From Desulfonauticus submarinus (GTDB taxonomy: Bacteria > Desulfobacterota > Desulfovibrionia > Desulfovibrionales > Desulfonatronovibrionaceae): DNA of 54,041 bases. Below the pieces are notes generated by a model. The model did no database searches, was not told the DNA's origin, and was given only the letters and a program-made list of their open reading frames with translations. The stretch is taken from positions 1-54,041 of the forward strand of contig NZ_FNIN01000011.1 in the NCBI RefSeq assembly GCF_900104045.1, read 5' to 3'. The position numbers were made by a program, and so were the translations under genes. The first letter of the stretch is position 1, and each line of letters begins with the position of its first letter. Positions 26,063 through 39,145 of this stretch are shown here, piece by piece.

Positions 26063-26671
26063 TTAGTCTTTGGCGTATTCTACTTTCCACACTTCGTATA
26101 CTTTGCCTGCAAGTGCAGGAGAAGGTGTTAAAGTAGGTTTGCCTGGACGCCAGCCTGCAGGACAAGCTTCATTGGAATGTTCTCTTACATATTGGAATGC
26201 CTGAATTTGACGAATTAATTCATCTGTATTTCTACCTACAGGAGCATTTAGAACCTCTACTGCTTGGACTATTCCATCTGGATCAACCAAAAATCTTCCT
26301 CTTAAATTAACTCCCATTTTTTCATCATAAACTCCATAAGTTTGACCTGTTTTTCCTCCTACATCCCAAAGCATGGGAAAAGGAGCTCCTCCTTCTACCA
26401 TTTTGGATAATTCTTCTTCTTGCCAAACTTTGTGACTAAATACAGTATCTGTGCTAATGGCAAGGACCTCTACTCCTAATTCTTTTAATTCTGGATAGCG
26501 AACCGCTATTGCTGAAATTTCAGTAGGTCAAACAAAAGTAAAGTCTGCAGGGTAAAAGCAGATTACTACCCATTTACCCCTAAAGTCAGAAAGTTTGAAT
26601 TCCTTTACTCCACCTTCATAATAGCCTTGTAAAGAAAACTCTGGGGCTTCTACTCCTGGACGTACGTTCAT
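26063..26671 (-). CDS. Selenocysteine-containing peroxiredoxin (AhpC/Prx family), TGA read as Sec
   Basis: One reading frame runs from the ATG at 26671 to 26063 (202 residues), broken only by TGA at 26530-26528. That codon is residue 48, exactly the peroxidatic cysteine of the family, in FYPADFTFV-U-PTEIS (normally FVCPTE). The frame on both sides is intact: MNVRPGVEAPEFSLQGYYEG, KLSDFRGKW, ISTDTVFSHKVWQ, RGRFLVDPDGIV, and the resolving cysteine in EACPAGW (C170). A hairpin 18 bases after the TGA fits a bacterial SECIS. It would reduce peroxides with high efficiency. It faces perR, with a PerR-type box between them. A decayed gene is the alternative, but a single TGA at this one position makes that unlikely. 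Confidence 0.9.
26495..26509 (-). promoter_or_regulatory. SECIS-like hairpin for UGA recoding
   Basis: On the - strand ATAGCG-GTT-CGCTAT is a perfect 6-bp stem with a small G/U-containing loop, beginning 18 bases after the in-frame TGA. This is the distance and size expected for the bacterial SECIS that recruits SelB. The assignment is inferred from position and fold; bacterial SECIS sequences are not conserved. Confidence 0.65.
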
Positions 26672-26697: not shown

Positions 26698-26726
26698 TTG
26701 ACAAGACGATAATTGATAATTATTAT
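26698..26726 (+). promoter_or_regulatory. perR operon promoter
   Basis: TTGACA (26698-26703), 17 bases, TATTAT (26721-26726), reading toward perR about 75 bases downstream. Confidence 0.75.
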
Positions 26727-26730
26727 CAAT
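26712..26730. promoter_or_regulatory. PerR/Fur-type operator
   Basis: Perfect 9-1-9 palindrome ATTGATAATTATTATCAAT, matching the Fur/PerR box pattern. It covers the -10 of the perR promoter and lies between perR and the divergent peroxiredoxin gene, so one bound repressor could shut both directions. Confidence 0.8.
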
Positions 26731-26800: not shown

Positions 26801-27226
26801 ATGAAATTACCTAAAGACAAGAGGTTAACAAAACAACGTCAAATAATTTTAAAAACTTTGAAAAAAGTTAAGACACATCCAACTGCAGATGAAGTATATG
26901 ATATGGTGCGAAAAGAATTACCTAAGATTAGCTTAGGTACAGTATATCGCAATTTGGAGATAATGTCTGAAATGGGGATTATTCAAAAGTTAGAGTTGGC
27001 TGGGCATCAAAAGAGATTTGATGGAAATCCAGAACCTCACTTACATATCCGTTGTCTTGAATGTGGTAAAGTTGCAGATGTAGATTTGGATGTGGATTTA
27101 AGTTTTGATCAGGAATATATTTCAGGTTTTTTATTAAAAGGGTATAGAATAGAGTTAGTTGGCATTTGTCCAGAATGCCAAAAGCAGGTGCAAAGGTCTC
27201 CAAGGCCTTTTAACTTAGACCAGTAA
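26801..27226 (+). CDS. perR: Fur-family regulator, PerR-like
   Basis: A 141-residue metalloregulator with an N-terminal winged helix (RLTKQRQIILKTLKKVKTHP, ADEVYDMV, ISLGTVYRNLEIM) and a C-terminal dimerisation domain with two CxxC zinc pairs (CLECGKVADVD and CPECQ) and the HLHIRC metal site. Position next to a peroxiredoxin and rubrerythrin, rather than iron transport genes, argues for PerR, the peroxide sensor. It is preceded by a strong promoter whose -10 lies in a PerR-type box, so autoregulation is likely. The next two genes follow with gaps of 10 and 31 bases. Confidence 0.9.
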   Translation: MKLPKDKRLTKQRQIILKTLKKVKTHPTADEVYDMVRKELPKISLGTVYRNLEIMSEMGIIQKLELAGHQKRFDGNPEPHLHIRCLECGKVADVDLDVDLSFDQEYISGFLLKGYRIELVGICPECQKQVQRSPRPFNLDQ

Positions 27227-27236
27227 AGGAGGCTTT

Positions 27237-27578
27237 ATGTGTGATTTAAAGAAGTTTAGAGATTTGCCTATAGAATGGGATATGACTCAAGAAGATGCCA
27301 TTACCAGGCATCTAGAGTGGGGTAATAATCCTTATAAGGGAGAGAGAAGGGCTGTACAGTTTGAAGGAGAAACTTCTTATTATTTTGTAGTAAATACTTG
27401 GGATTCTCCAAAAGTTATGTTAATTAAAATGAGTTCAGAAGGGCCTGAAGAACTAGCAGAGCTTGATCTCCCTGATAATTTGGCTCAAGATTTTTATGCC
27501 AAGATGGGCAAGTTAAAAGGAGTGTTTCCTATTACTCCTAAGATAAAAGCATGGTTAGAAGAAAAAATGGGGTTATAA
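27237..27578 (+). CDS. Conserved hypothetical protein of the PerR operon, 113 residues
   Basis: A soluble acidic protein, MCDLKKFRDLPIEWDMTQED, with AITRHLEWGNNPYKGERRAV, YYFVVNTWDSPKVMLIKM and a C-terminal helix (ITPKIKAWLEEKMGL). No catalytic motif is evident. From memory, similar small proteins belong to the predicted PerR regulon of Desulfovibrio vulgaris (DVU0772-like); I cannot confirm homology here. AAGGAGG precedes the ATG, and its position between perR and rubrerythrin suggests a peroxide-stress role. Confidence 0.8.
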   Translation: MCDLKKFRDLPIEWDMTQEDAITRHLEWGNNPYKGERRAVQFEGETSYYFVVNTWDSPKVMLIKMSSEGPEELAELDLPDNLAQDFYAKMGKLKGVFPITPKIKAWLEEKMGL

Positions 27579-27609: not shown

Positions 27610-28185
27610 ATGAAATCAATCAAAGGAACTCAAACAGAAAAAAATTTGCTTACTGCTTTTGCTGGTGAGTCGCAGGCAAGAAATCGATATACTTATTTTG
27701 CTAGTAAGGCTAAAAAAGAAGGGTATGTTCAGATTTCTAAAATTTTTGAAGAAACGGCTAATCAAGAAAAAGAACATGCCAAGCGTTTGTTTAAGTTTTT
27801 AGAAGGTGGAGTAGTAGAGGTAAAAGCATCTTTCCCCGCAGGAGTAATTGGATCTACATTAGAAAATTTAAAAGCTGCAGCAGAAGGGGAGAAAGAGGAG
27901 TATGAGCATATGTATCCAGAGTTTGCAAAAATAGCAGATGAAGAAGGATTCCCTGAAATTGCTGCTGTGTTTAGAGCAATTGCTATAGCTGAACAGCAAC
28001 ATGAGAAGAGATATAAGGAATTAGCTGCTAACTTAGAAAATGGTAAAGTATTTAAAAAAGATACTAAGGTTGTCTGGAGATGTTTGAATTGTGGATATTT
28101 ACATACAGGAGAGGAAGCTCCAGATAAATGTCCTGCTTGTGATCATCCCCAAGCGTATTTTGAGTTGTTAGCAGAAAATTGGTAA
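27610..28185 (+). CDS. rbr: Rubrerythrin
   Basis: Di-iron peroxidase that reduces hydrogen peroxide to water with electrons from rubredoxin. The 191 residues have a four-helix di-iron domain (TAFAGESQARNRYTYFA, EETANQEKEHAKRLF, AIAIAEQQHEKRY; the E and ExxH ligands are visible) and a C-terminal rubredoxin-like domain with CLNCGYLHTG and CPACDHPQAYF. Third gene of the perR operon; AGGAGG upstream. A strong terminator follows. Confidence 0.97.
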   Translation: MKSIKGTQTEKNLLTAFAGESQARNRYTYFASKAKKEGYVQISKIFEETANQEKEHAKRLFKFLEGGVVEVKASFPAGVIGSTLENLKAAAEGEKEEYEHMYPEFAKIADEEGFPEIAAVFRAIAIAEQQHEKRYKELAANLENGKVFKKDTKVVWRCLNCGYLHTGEEAPDKCPACDHPQAYFELLAENW

Positions 28186-36063: not shown

Positions 36064-36744
36064 TTATTTATTTAAACCACTTACCAGACTACTTAAAGGT
36101 ACAAATGAATAATTCCAGTAAATTTTGATATGCTTATATTTGACCATAACAGGGATAAAGGTTTTGGGTATATCTAATTTTAAGACTTTTAAAAATAGAA
36201 CACTATAGGCTAAAATATATGCATCTGTTTCTAAATTTAGAGCTGCTAATATTTTATCTTGTGCCTTTATTCCTAAATTTGGTCTTTTTTGAGCTAATCT
36301 CGCAGTTCCCCAGTATGCGCCTCTTCGAAGAGGCGCATACTCTAAAAAATTATCTTTCCCTTGCTCGTTCTCTTGAAGATAAGAAAAGAGAATAGTATGG
36401 TATTCCTTTGCTATTTGAGAGTTTATGGCCATAATTTCGCCCATTGCTTCTGGTACTCCCCACCCGATTCCGCCAGATTCATCATTTAGCATCCACATGA
36501 ATCTTCGCATAACAACTCTAGCATCTTCTATATAATTTTTAGCCATTTCGTTTACTACTAAGCCAAACGCACTTATTCCATGCCAGCGGATTTTTTCTTC
36601 TGGATGTAGAAGAGCAGAAAACAGAGGATTTACTACTTTTTTTAAGGGAAAGGTGAGAAGCTCTTTTAAAGCAGTTTGGGGATTGTCCTTTTCTAAGATA
36701 TCAAAAACTTTATATTTTAGTTTTTTATTACTAATAGTAGACAT
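36064..36744 (-). CDS. HEAT-repeat-like hypothetical protein beside cydA
   Basis: A 226-residue soluble helical protein. The pattern VVNPLFSALLHPEEKIRWHG, ISAFGLVV, RVVMRRFMWMLNDESGGIGW GVPEAMGEIM, then LRRGAYWGTARLAQKRP resembles HEAT/PBS repeats, with alternating helices and conserved R, W and G. It lies 34 bases upstream of cydA on the same strand and may be cotranscribed with it. No function is known to me; a role in assembly or regulation of the oxidase is only a possibility. Confidence 0.75.
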   Translation of the reverse strand: MSTISNKKLKYKVFDILEKDNPQTALKELLTFPLKKVVNPLFSALLHPEEKIRWHGISAFGLVVNEMAKNYIEDARVVMRRFMWMLNDESGGIGWGVPEAMGEIMAINSQIAKEYHTILFSYLQENEQGKDNFLEYAPLRRGAYWGTARLAQKRPNLGIKAQDKILAALNLETDAYILAYSVLFLKVLKLDIPKTFIPVMVKYKHIKIYWNYSFVPLSSLVSGLNK

Positions 36745-36791: not shown

Positions 36792-37991
36792 TTAACTAAG
36801 TTTTTTCTTTATTTCTAAGGCAAGTGCTTTCCCCATTTCTTTGCACTTGGCTAGGGTTTCGTGAGTTGGAACGTTTTTTACTTTTAAAGGTTCAAGAGGA
36901 AGTTCAAATTTTGCATCTTCTAGTATTTTGGCAATGTGTTTTGGTGCTTCTCCACTCCAACCAAAAGAACCAAAAGAAGCGCCAATTCTACCCACAGGTT
37001 TTAAGCCTTTCATATAAGTTAAAAAGTCTGCCATTAAGGGCATCATGCTATTGTTGTGAGTAGGAGAGCCACAAATAATAGCAGCTGCATCCACTACTTC
37101 TCCCATCACATCGCTGTGATGATATGATTTTAAAGACATAATTTTTACTGATATTTGTTGGCTAACTAATCCTTCTGCAATAGCCTTGGCCATTTTTTCT
37201 GTACTTTGCCACATTGTATCATAAACTATAACAGCTTTATGTTTAAGTTTTTGAATGCTTAACTCTTTGTATAAATTTATCACCTTATCTAAATGAGAGC
37301 GCCAAATAAGGCCATGGTCAGGAGCTATCATGTCAATGTCCCAACCAGCATTTTGAACATTTTCCAAGGTTTTTTGTACAATTGAAGAATAAGGTAGGAT
37401 AATATTAGCATAATAATGCTTTGCTTCAGCAAGTATTAATTCAAGTTCTATTTCATCATCAAATCGTTCTGTAGAGGCAATATTTTGCCCAAATCCATCA
37501 TTAGAAATTAGAAGTTTATCTTCTGGAATAAAGGAAAACATACTGTCAGGCCAATGAAGCATCCTTGTTTCCATAAATTTAATACTTTTTTTGCCTAAGG
37601 ATATAACAGTTTCATTATTTACTACTTCGTATGGCCAATTTGGGTTGTGATAATGGTCTAAAAGGGCTTTTTTACCCATTGTAGAACAAAATATTTTTTC
37701 TGGCTTTGCTTTTTCTATAATAAAAGGCAAAGCACCTGAGTGATCAGGCTCTACATGGTTAACCACAATATAATCAATATCTTCAATTTTTATAAGGTGT
37801 TGAATTTGGTGATATAAATCTAATTTAAATTTTTCTGGGACTGTATCAAAAAGAGTAATTTTTTCATCTAACACAAGATAAGCATTATAGGTTGTTCCTT
37901 TGTCAGCTAGAGAGTATCCATGAAAATTACGTAAATTCCAATCTATAACTCCTACCCAATAAACATTTTCCTTTATTTTTAATACCGCCAT
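36792..37991 (-). CDS. roo: Flavodiiron protein, rubredoxin:oxygen oxidoreductase type
   Basis: This enzyme reduces oxygen to water and can also reduce nitric oxide, with electrons from rubredoxin. The 399 residues comprise an N-terminal metallo-beta-lactamase-like di-iron domain (NHVEPDHSGALP gives the HxExDH ligands; MLHWPDSMFSF; APDHGLIWR) and a C-terminal flavodoxin domain (VIVYDTMWQSTEKMAKAIAE, then CGSPTHNNSMMP). There is no C-terminal rubredoxin domain, so it needs the separate rubredoxin encoded upstream. Confidence 0.95.
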   Translation of the reverse strand: MAVLKIKENVYWVGVIDWNLRNFHGYSLADKGTTYNAYLVLDEKITLFDTVPEKFKLDLYHQIQHLIKIEDIDYIVVNHVEPDHSGALPFIIEKAKPEKIFCSTMGKKALLDHYHNPNWPYEVVNNETVISLGKKSIKFMETRMLHWPDSMFSFIPEDKLLISNDGFGQNIASTERFDDEIELELILAEAKHYYANIILPYSSIVQKTLENVQNAGWDIDMIAPDHGLIWRSHLDKVINLYKELSIQKLKHKAVIVYDTMWQSTEKMAKAIAEGLVSQQISVKIMSLKSYHHSDVMGEVVDAAAIICGSPTHNNSMMPLMADFLTYMKGLKPVGRIGASFGSFGWSGEAPKHIAKILEDAKFELPLEPLKVKNVPTHETLAKCKEMGKALALEIKKKLS

Positions 37992-38061: not shown

Positions 38062-38085
38062 AAGAGCCCCAACACTGGGGCTCTT
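38062..38085. terminator. Hairpin between rubredoxin and roo
   Basis: Perfect 10-bp stem, AAGAGCCCCA and TGGGGCTCTT, with a 4-base loop. A T-run follows on the + strand; on the - strand the tail TTTGCTCTTT is weaker. It may partly end the desulfoferrodoxin-rubredoxin transcript before roo. Confidence 0.65.
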
Positions 38086-38091
38086 AATTTT

Positions 38092-38250
38092 TTATTCTTT
38101 GTTAAAATTCTCTTTTGTAGCACCACAAACAGGACAAACCCAATCCTCTGGGAGGTCTTCAAATTTTGTCCCAGGTTGGACTCCATGCCCAGGATCTCCT
38201 TCCTTAGGATCATACACATAACCACAAATTGCACATACCCAACGTTCCAT
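38092..38250 (-). CDS. Rubredoxin (classic CX2C type)
   Basis: A 52-residue iron protein: [50 protein letters not shown]. The four cysteine ligands (6, 9, 39, 42) are in two CxxCG-type knuckles. It is the expected electron donor to the adjacent flavodiiron protein. GGAGAAAAAAT precedes the ATG at 38250. It is short but unmistakable. Confidence 0.97.
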
Positions 38251-38271: not shown

Positions 38272-38469
38272 TTATTTCACAGCGTTTGGGCCTCCTAAGG
38301 GCCGAAAGCTTTTTTTAGTTGCTCCACACACAGGACATTTCCAGTCTTCAGGTAAATCTTCAAATGCAGTCCCTTTAGGTATTTTAGCCTTACGATCTCC
38401 TTTATCTGGATTGTAAATATAACCACAATTAGATACCTGACATTGCCACATATTTTCTGGATTTGTCAT
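38272..38469 (-). CDS. Rubredoxin-2 type (CX4C first knuckle)
   Basis: A 65-residue rubredoxin starting MTNPENMWQCQVSNCGYIYN. The first cysteine pair is spaced CX4C (C-QVSN-C) rather than CX2C; the second is the normal CPVCG. Known rubredoxin-2/Rdl proteins of Desulfovibrio have the same two-residue insertion. The start is the ATG at 38469 with AAGGAAG upstream; the longer frame overlapping desulfoferrodoxin is not needed. It has a short proline- and glycine-rich tail (RPLGGPNAVK). Confidence 0.93.
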   Translation of the reverse strand: MTNPENMWQCQVSNCGYIYNPDKGDRKAKIPKGTAFEDLPEDWKCPVCGATKKSFRPLGGPNAVK

Positions 38470-38482
38470 AATACTTCCTTTT

Positions 38483-38863
38483 TTATGCTTCTGCTTTCCA
38501 AAGTCCATGTAAATTACAATAAGCTCTAGCAGTTACTTTGTCAGCAGAGATACAAAATTCAGCCGTTGGTTTGTCTCCTGGGACTAAAAATTTTCTATAT
38601 GCCTTATTGTCTGCTATAAGCTCAATCCATTCGATATAGTGTTTTTCTTCCATAGGGTGTGCTGTACTACCTACTGTTACTTTATAACCATTGTTTGTCT
38701 TTTCAATTACAGGCACGTGTTTTTCATAAGCAGCATCAACACTATTTTCTGTGTATAATTTCATTGGTTGACCACAACAAACAAGCTCTCCTTTTCCATC
38801 ATGAACCATTTCTACTATGTTGCCGCATATTTCACATTTGTAAATTTCCAATACCTTAGTCAT
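38483..38863 (-). CDS. dfx: Desulfoferrodoxin (superoxide reductase)
   Basis: Reduces superoxide to peroxide without making oxygen. The 126 residues have an N-terminal desulforedoxin domain with [16 protein letters not shown] and LVCCGQPM (four cysteines, FeCys4 centre) and the catalytic centre with [22 protein letters not shown] and the C-terminal AYCNLHGLW (Cys/His ligands). It is the 2Fe form with the N-terminal cysteines intact. Upstream of two rubredoxins and roo, as in the rbo-rub-roo cluster of Desulfovibrio. Confidence 0.97.
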
Positions 38864-38905: not shown

Positions 38906-39082
38906 TTAATCTTGTACACAAGCATAAAAACATCTTTTTGGTGAATAAATTAGATTTTCTTTTTTTAGCTCTTTTATGATTTTGGTTACATCTGAAGTTG
39001 CAACTCCCAATTTTTTAGCAATATCTGCAGACTTTAAAGGATTACTAGATGATTTTAACACTTCTATTACCTTTTCCTTCAT
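38906..39082 (-). CDS. Small winged-helix protein leading the desulfoferrodoxin cluster
   Basis: A 58-residue protein: MKEKVIEVLKSSSNPLKSAD, IAKKLGVATSDVTKIIKELK, then KENLIYSPKRCFYACVQD. It has the helix-turn-helix and wing layout of MarR-like or DsrD-like winged helices and ends with a CX3C pair (CFYAC), which could bind a metal or act as a redox switch (inference). AAAGGAGGT precedes the ATG. It is 42 bases upstream of dfx on the same strand, behind a strong promoter with an operator-like palindrome. Confidence 0.82.
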   Translation of the reverse strand: MKEKVIEVLKSSSNPLKSADIAKKLGVATSDVTKIIKELKKENLIYSPKRCFYACVQD

Positions 39083-39104
39083 TTTTACCTCCTTTAGTTG
39101 AGAT

Positions 39105-39116
39105 TAATAATTATTA
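39105..39116. promoter_or_regulatory. Operator-like palindrome of the desulfoferrodoxin operon
   Basis: Perfect 12-bp palindrome TAATAATTATTA directly downstream of the -10, a position suited to repression. It resembles a Fur/PerR half-box core but is less complete than the one at 26712. Confidence 0.5.
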
Positions 39117-39145
39117 CTATTAATTTTAAAAGTTAAGGGTGTCAA
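39117..39145 (-). promoter_or_regulatory. Promoter of the winged-helix/desulfoferrodoxin operon
   Basis: On the - strand TTGACA (39145-39140), 17 bases, TAATAG (39122-39117), about 35 bases before the start codon of the small winged-helix gene. Confidence 0.7.

Follow-up and report, generated by a model that had tools for sequence, protein, structure and literature searches.

A small winged-helix protein encoded at the head of a likely PerR-controlled superoxide reductase operon belongs to a family shared by anaerobic bacteria and archaea

MarR proteins are about 140 amino acids long and carry dimerisation helices around their winged helix-turn-helix. Zalpha domains make their core contacts through an Asn and a Tyr of the recognition helix (N173 and Y177 in ADAR1) and through a Trp in the wing. 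Folds related to Zalpha have also been proposed in some prokaryotic regulators, specifically in a subset of arsR proteins (PMC11293857, which makes no mention of PscE). PscE is described in the consulted sections of PMC9529944 as a helix-turn-helix subunit that is absent from the RC-FMO1 particle, and it has been modelled beside PscC and FMO in the membrane complex of Chlorobaculum tepidum, with a proposed role in docking. The same picture is given in the consulted sections of PMC11269200. For Desulfovibrio, seven sites for the peroxide regulator PerR are collected in Table 7 of PMC545781, the part of that source on which we rely.

The gene described here lies in a window of 54,041 nucleotides (the whole stretch of DNA analysed) from Desulfonauticus submarinus, and its coordinates and those of neighbouring features are given in Table 1. 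Its ATG start codon is preceded by a strong ribosome site, AAAGGAGG, and the encoded protein ends in ...SPKRCFYACVQD. Comparison with the orthologue of a genome from the same genus (L122) yields 20, 7 and 25 differences at codon positions 1, 2 and 3, and because of this pattern and the presence of relatives across phyla the open reading frame (ORF) is judged to be coding. The gene is real and encodes a protein. An earlier note on this DNA had predicted that the superoxide reductase (SOR) cluster begins with a gene for a winged-helix protein of 58 residues, and both parts of this prediction hold, as evident from the ORF, the codon-position pattern, the distant relatives, the AlphaFold2 model and the Pfam matches, and from the start of the SOR gene only 42 bp past the stop codon of the small gene. 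The gene is located upstream of SOR, the rubredoxins and roo in all three sampled genomes of the genus. Because a terminator-like hairpin stands between the second rubredoxin gene and roo, the latter need not share a transcript with the SOR and rubredoxin genes.

Table 1. Features of the window that surround the small winged-helix gene and the perR gene
Feature	Position	Strand	Remark
-35 element TTGACA	39140..39145	-	perfect
-10 element TAATAG	39117..39122	-	weak; spacer 17
PerR-type operator (predicted) AATAGTAATAATTATTAAT	39103..39121	-	best PerR-motif match in the 54-kb window; overlaps the -10 element
small winged-helix gene ('SPKRC' family)	38906..39082	-	58 aa, stand-alone
superoxide reductase (SOR; desulfoferrodoxin, N-terminal and main domains)	38483..38863	-	Pfam PF06397 and PF01880
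rubredoxin, four residues between first two cysteines	38272..38469	-	Pfam PF00301
rubredoxin	38092..38250	-	Pfam PF00301
terminator-like hairpin between operon and roo	38062..38085	.	good T run on + strand, poor on - strand
rubredoxin:oxygen oxidoreductase (flavodiiron, Roo)	36792..37991	-	Pfam PF19583 and PF00258
PerR-like Fur-family regulator	26801..27226	+	sole PF01475 match in the genome
113-aa protein of unknown function between perR and rubrerythrin	27237..27578	+	no Pfam match
rubrerythrin	27610..28185	+	Pfam PF02915 and PF21349
perfect palindrome TTGATAATTATTATCAA between perR and divergent peroxiredoxin	26713..26729	.	core in common with the 39103 box; possible PerR site

Several other features of the window were recorded alongside. 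The first rubredoxin carries the unusual arrangement CQVSNC, and its neighbour has the usual two residues between the first two cysteines. A 226-aa protein (36064-36744, - strand) with no Pfam match is encoded between roo and cydA, and its place is kept in G083, a genome of another genus in the same family, at 56% identity. The peroxiredoxin gene that diverges from perR (26063-26671, - strand) has a TGA codon at its active-site cysteine (PADFTFV-TGA-PTE), and the genome carries a tRNA-Sec match over the Rfam cut-off (85.1 bits); from its sequence, the product is likely a selenocysteine peroxiredoxin.

In the AlphaFold2 model (mean pLDDT 89.7), the 58-aa protein folds into a compact winged helix. 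Helices span residues 2-11, 18-25 and 29-41 and strands 45-49 and 52-55, and the turn R50-C51 joins the two wing strands and forms the wing tip. Among the best 25 of 41 Pfam models, the protein matches MarR (PF01047; 28.9 bits, cut-off 24.6) and FaeA-like (PF04703; 21.4 bits, cut-off 20.7), and no NCBIfam model exceeds its cut-off among the 25 matches listed. Its best sequence match in the PDB is PscE of Chlorobaculum tepidum (phmmer 2.4e-10), and mouse ZBP1 is matched at 4.9e-4. The top matches of the model in Foldseek are stand-alone Zalpha domains (TM 0.87 for 9j8g/1j75, rmsd 1.0-1.1, 55 columns, E 1.6e-3), and none of the matches listed attains an E value of 0.001 or better. VIA-align places Zalpha domains in a near tie with many ordinary winged helices (Z 9.7-11.1, best 50 rows), and chain E of 7ueb is absent from the best 50 rows of both comparisons. 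Both methods place winged helices nearest to the model, and many of these bind nucleic acid.

We defined the family to which this protein belongs as stand-alone winged helices of 54-76 aa with a C-terminal [ST]P[KRV][RN]C[FYC][YW] motif, which reads SPKRCFY in the window protein. Such a family of anaerobic bacteria and archaea is apparently undescribed, as no account of it was found in the open-licence papers searched on PscE, the PerR regulon, SOR and rubredoxin, and prokaryotic Zalpha domains. Full-length matches occur in 82 of 297 Desulfovibrionia genomes, as counted by eye after 57 of 139 class genomes with weak best matches were dropped, including two with partial matches (G278 and G049). 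Three loci without an SPKRC motif (L039-L041) were also dropped from the counts. The family was likewise found in 26 of 247 genomes of an own-phylum sample (threshold 1e-12; the matches include weaker and partial ones), in 68 of 296 genomes from the phylum of a Chlorobiota genome, in 24 of 37 from the class of a Caldanaerobacter genome and in 43 of 246 from the phylum of an Archaeoglobales genome. In what follows, the labels Archaea and Thermoanaerobacteria denote the phylum or class searched, and 'Chlorobia' (16 loci) is inferred from the PscE-like sequence. Some genomes carry two full-length copies (L013/G302, L203-L204/G620, L189-L190/G736 and L175-L176/G457), and in one further case a second copy with an in-frame TGA before the wing (L250, G1101:C118) coexists with an intact copy located on a different contig (L249).

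Across 149 loci (window included), which encode 141 distinct proteins, the wing motif reads SPKRCYY in 68, SPKRCFY in 56, SPKRCYW in 16 and otherwise in 9. The distinct proteins have a median pI of 9.2 and conserve K30 (87%), K34 (97%), K40 (82%) and the stretch S47-Y53; the window protein is a divergent member that has neither K30 nor the RPGD stretch of most relatives. A cysteine at position 51 is present at all 149 loci (147 as RC, 2 as NC) and at 15 of 16 further Desulfobacterota loci (two SPVRCKY, three SPK[QK]C), the remaining one being cut by a stop before the Cys codon. The earlier note had drawn attention to a CX3C tail. This tail does exist in the window sequence, but its second Cys occurs at one of the 149 loci, that of the window protein itself, and the same-genus orthologue ends in CYYAV. 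The pair is thus not supported as the functional unit, and a metal or disulfide site formed by it was rejected as a family feature. Homologues without cysteines and outside this gene context had been named as evidence that would count against the earlier proposal, and here the two residues part ways: the first is universal among the 149 loci and the second is confined to the window protein.

The promoter described in the earlier note, TTGACA-N17-TAATAG followed by a 12-bp palindrome right after the -10 element, is present in exactly that form. The palindrome (TAATAATTATTA, 39105-39116) lies inside the predicted operator at 39103-39121. Promoter-like sites as such are in no clear excess in the region (36 found versus 31.1 +/- 4.2 expected). 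We built a PerR motif matrix from the seven Desulfovibrio sites in Table 7 of PMC545781, the portion of that paper used here, and the box in front of the gene scores 15.9 bits, which is the top match in 54 kb, with the next at 12.7 bits. By this motif scan, the promoter carries a predicted operator of the type that marks the Desulfovibrio PerR regulon. A scan of the same AT-rich genome for box-like 19-mers gave no enrichment (58 matches versus 52 in the control), and the palindrome between perR and the peroxiredoxin gene is outside the 25 best PerR-motif matches of the window.

Similar boxes are located upstream of the gene within the genus and in other Desulfovibrionia. The scoring took in 61 of the 82 family-positive genomes (the window and 60 loci), and five of the 61 loci were dropped as identical proteins, leaving 56 in the box statistics. 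A box of at least 9 bits is found between positions -70 and -10 in 32 of these 56 (24 stay below 9 bits), and a box of at least 12 bits in 22. Nine shifted control windows contain at least 9 bits at 0-1 loci (of 53-56) and at least 12 bits at none, and 300 palindrome-preserving column shuffles yield a mean of 1.5 (maximum 15) at the lower threshold and 0.5 (maximum 9) at the higher. The best box within 250 bp is below 7 bits at 15 of the 61 loci, and some loci have a box further up. Outside Desulfovibrionia we used the B. subtilis PerR consensus, a weak test, which matches upstream of the gene at 3 of 9 Thermoanaerobacteria loci (control 2.5%), at none of 15 Chlorobia loci, and at one locus each among 29 from other Bacteroidota, 28 from Archaea and 4 from miscellaneous bacteria. 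Control of the gene by PerR appears likely from these motif data.

The same type of box also occurs where the small protein does not. A degenerate pattern made from two of the PerR sites in the consulted part of PMC545781 matched 33 places in 32 of 297 Desulfovibrionia genomes, versus 2 with the reversed pattern. Among 30 of these loci taken for inspection, 20 adjoin a homologue of the 113-aa ORF that separates perR from rubrerythrin in the window, one adjoins a peroxiredoxin gene, one a rubrerythrin gene and eight none of the queries. Boxes in front of the 113-aa homologue are kept in eight genomes that have only weak, non-family matches to the small protein (G038, G043, G052, G058, G103, G119, G124 and G131), so the presence of the box does not depend on the small protein. 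Because boxes persist without it, and because the only Fur-family match of the Desulfonauticus genome is the PerR-like protein, PerR is the natural reader of the box. To judge from these sequences, the palindrome looks like the switch of PerR rather than the gene's own. Since its homologues adjoin PerR-type boxes at 20 of 30 loci, the 113-aa ORF probably encodes a conserved member of the PerR regulon. The possibility that the small protein corresponds to 206199/395549, a PerR target left unnamed in the part of PMC545781 consulted, was also considered and rejected: boxes of that kind mostly adjoin homologues of the 113-aa ORF, which is thus the better candidate. Neither exact published site for 206199/395549 was found in the 297 genomes.

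The genome G083 offers a natural variant of the arrangement. It carries a decayed copy of the gene with four stops (L159, 4485-4658, - strand, G083:C31). Downstream of this copy come what by eye looks like the start of a rubrerythrin, then SOR, a pair of rubredoxins and roo, and a like palindrome is kept in front of the copy. An intact copy is located about 8 kb away on the same contig, near Fur and peroxiredoxin genes. This arrangement is consistent with PerR acting on the operon through the operator, and with a protein that works in trans, so that one copy per genome suffices.

The genes that recur beside the family were identified by de novo clustering of every ORF lying up to 5 kb from the gene at the 149 loci, with clusters ranked by the number of lineage groups in which they occur; cluster names rest on the sequences and, for members in the window, on Pfam. 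The six most widespread clusters are all stress genes, namely rubrerythrin (19 loci in 6 lineage groups, 16 of them within 1.5 kb), Fur/PerR (11 in 5), peroxiredoxin (11 in 5), SOR (8 in 4), rubredoxin (8 in 4) and ferritin (5 in 4). They are followed by a cluster (5 loci, 4 groups) made up of 53-aa ORFs on mixed strands, which looks like an artefact, and, at three groups, by Roo (7 loci), nearly matched by a 6-locus cluster that we take to be an ABC-transporter-like ATPase, and two clusters of 4 loci. Stress genes are densest downstream of the gene, at 0.183 per kb in the first kb and 0.125 in the second. The first kb upstream has 0.068 per kb, and the more distant bins all range from 0.008 to 0.058. 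At 5 of the 16 further Desulfobacterota loci (L255, L256, L260, L262 and L263), the gene directly follows a Fur/PerR-family gene and has a rubrerythrin gene downstream.

This company is not constant, as a stress gene lies within 2 kb at 25 of the 149 loci and at the other 124 none does. The counts are 8 of 61 for Desulfovibrionia (at three of the eight, the neighbour is a rubrerythrin-like ORF on the opposite strand), 3 of 30 for other Bacteroidota, 3 of 4 for miscellaneous bacteria, 7 of 28 for Archaea, 4 of 10 for Thermoanaerobacteria and 0 of 16 for the inferred Chlorobia. SOR was rejected as an obligatory partner, given that five of the 82 family-positive Desulfovibrionia genomes have no SOR match (G165, G180, G236, G252 and G255; completeness is 89% for G252 and 84% for G255). 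The gene context is supported in a broader form, with oxidative-stress genes recurring in several lineages, and not as an obligatory tie to SOR.

The family, the fold, the operon position, the PerR-type box and its recurrence, and the recurrent stress context are established by computation. From them we propose a model to which we give about an even chance, in which the gene would be the first cistron of a wHTH-SOR-rubredoxin-rubredoxin operon and a PerR operator would cover the promoter of this operon. PerR would repress this promoter, and peroxide, by inactivating PerR, would cause the small winged-helix protein to be produced alongside the defence enzymes. The protein may be a minimal DNA- or RNA-binding domain that makes its contacts via a lysine-rich recognition helix and the SPKR wing tip; nucleic-acid binding is suggested by the median pI of 9.2, the conserved K30, K34 and K40, the SPKR wing tip itself and the winged helices found as nearest folds. 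It would then act as a second-tier regulator or as a nucleic-acid-bound stress factor. Oxidation or crosslinking of the invariant wing-tip Cys51 may alter binding, and redox sensing by this single residue is possible.

Other explanations must be weighed against this model. The earlier note had favoured a redox-sensing autoregulator that would bind the 39105 palindrome and control its own operon through its cysteines, a role that would suit a winged-helix protein at the head of an operon with a palindrome beside the -10 element and an invariant C51. However, the palindrome fits the published PerR motif, boxes of this kind precede a different probable PerR target in the eight genomes without a family match, and in G083 a like palindrome persists in front of the decayed copy. 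The CX3C pair exists at a single locus of 149, and a 58-aa protein without extra dimerisation helices is a less natural reader of palindromes, so that we regard autoregulation through this site as very unlikely. It is also conceivable, by analogy to PscE, that the domain gave up DNA binding and serves as an adaptor that docks on protein partners, as PscE was modelled with PscC and FMO. PscE, the only family member for which a structure was found, is a clear homologue (phmmer 2.4e-10, with SPKRC in common) that, in the accounts consulted, is seen in a membrane complex and not on DNA. A seven-residue motif that is near-invariant from archaea to bacteria would be unusual for a sequence-specific DNA reader, and a reductase-like ORF, presumably for bacteriochlorophyll synthesis, lies about 2.6 kb away at 6 of 16 inferred-Chlorobia loci. 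Against this, the family is present in Desulfovibrionia, Thermoanaerobacteria and archaea, which are not known to carry this photosystem. Moreover, the nearest large recurring ORFs at the inferred-Chlorobia loci look like DNA-repair helicase subunits, no reaction-centre gene was recognised among the ORFs listed there, and the conserved residues are basic and placed where related domains touch nucleic acid. An adaptor role is, on balance, unlikely.

Two further readings retain nucleic-acid binding in some form. The protein might recognize left-handed or otherwise unusual nucleic acid in the manner of Zalpha, and thus be a stress factor for DNA or RNA structure rather than a sequence-specific regulator. 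The top Foldseek matches (TM 0.87), the phmmer match to ZBP1 (4.9e-4) and the same minimal architecture argue for such a role, but the core Asn and Tyr of Zalpha are absent and the wing Trp is replaced by Tyr in 87% of the family, while VIA-align gives a near tie with ordinary winged helices and no Foldseek match listed reaches E 0.001; we consider this reading quite unlikely. Alternatively, the protein could be a small regulator of the ordinary MarR-like kind, whose targets are unrelated and which merely happens to be placed in stress operons. Pfam MarR does score over its cut-off, and 124 of 149 loci are without a stress neighbour within 2 kb. Nevertheless, the six neighbour clusters found in the most lineage groups are all stress genes, and PerR-type boxes occur at many loci that have no stress neighbour, which makes coincidental placement highly improbable.

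Under our preferred model of a PerR-covered operon, the oxygen defence that PerR probably controls in sulfate reducers and other anaerobes gains a small protein that is easy to miss, and the reading of the palindrome, which is most likely PerR's, is corrected. The model also links oxygen defence to PscE, so far described, in the sources consulted, as a reaction-centre subunit. What has been gained over the earlier note is a family, a probable regulon and a connection to PscE. We venture, as a tentative generalization, that these proteins of about 58 residues could be peroxide-induced, redox-responsive nucleic-acid binders that operate with PerR and sense through the wing-tip Cys, and that PscE could be one of these stress proteins that either was recruited to the photosystem or was purified along with it.

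PscE (Q8KDI3; chain E of 7ueb, the reaction centre-FMO supercomplex) is homologous to the window protein over residues 2-53, is of the same size and has the same SPKRC[FY] wing, although it does not have the second Cys; one family member, L165, agrees with PscE at all 52 aligned residues. It differs in being a described membrane-complex subunit, by the accounts consulted, and in that the 16 inferred-Chlorobia loci have no stress gene within 2 kb. With MarR (PF01047) the window protein shares the winged-helix part, over the curated cut-off, but at 58 aa, with helices that end at residue 41 and strands that extend to 55, it has no dimerisation helices. The FaeA-like model (PF04703) is only just exceeded, with a score below that for MarR, and no fimbrial setting was seen at this locus. 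Zalpha domains (ZBP1, ADAR1) have the same minimal fold of three helices and a wing, but in the SPKRC family the place of the core Asn is mostly Ser or Asp (Thr in the window protein), that of the core Tyr is mostly Lys and that of the wing Trp is Tyr in 87%. FUR and PerR are also winged-helix regulators tied to these defence genes, whereas the window protein is not a Fur homologue and the PerR-like gene is separate from it. Table 7 of PMC545781, the part consulted, names no small winged-helix gene and gives two targets as '?', yet the Desulfovibrio PerR regulon presented there has the same operator type and keeps like gene company to the SPKRC gene.
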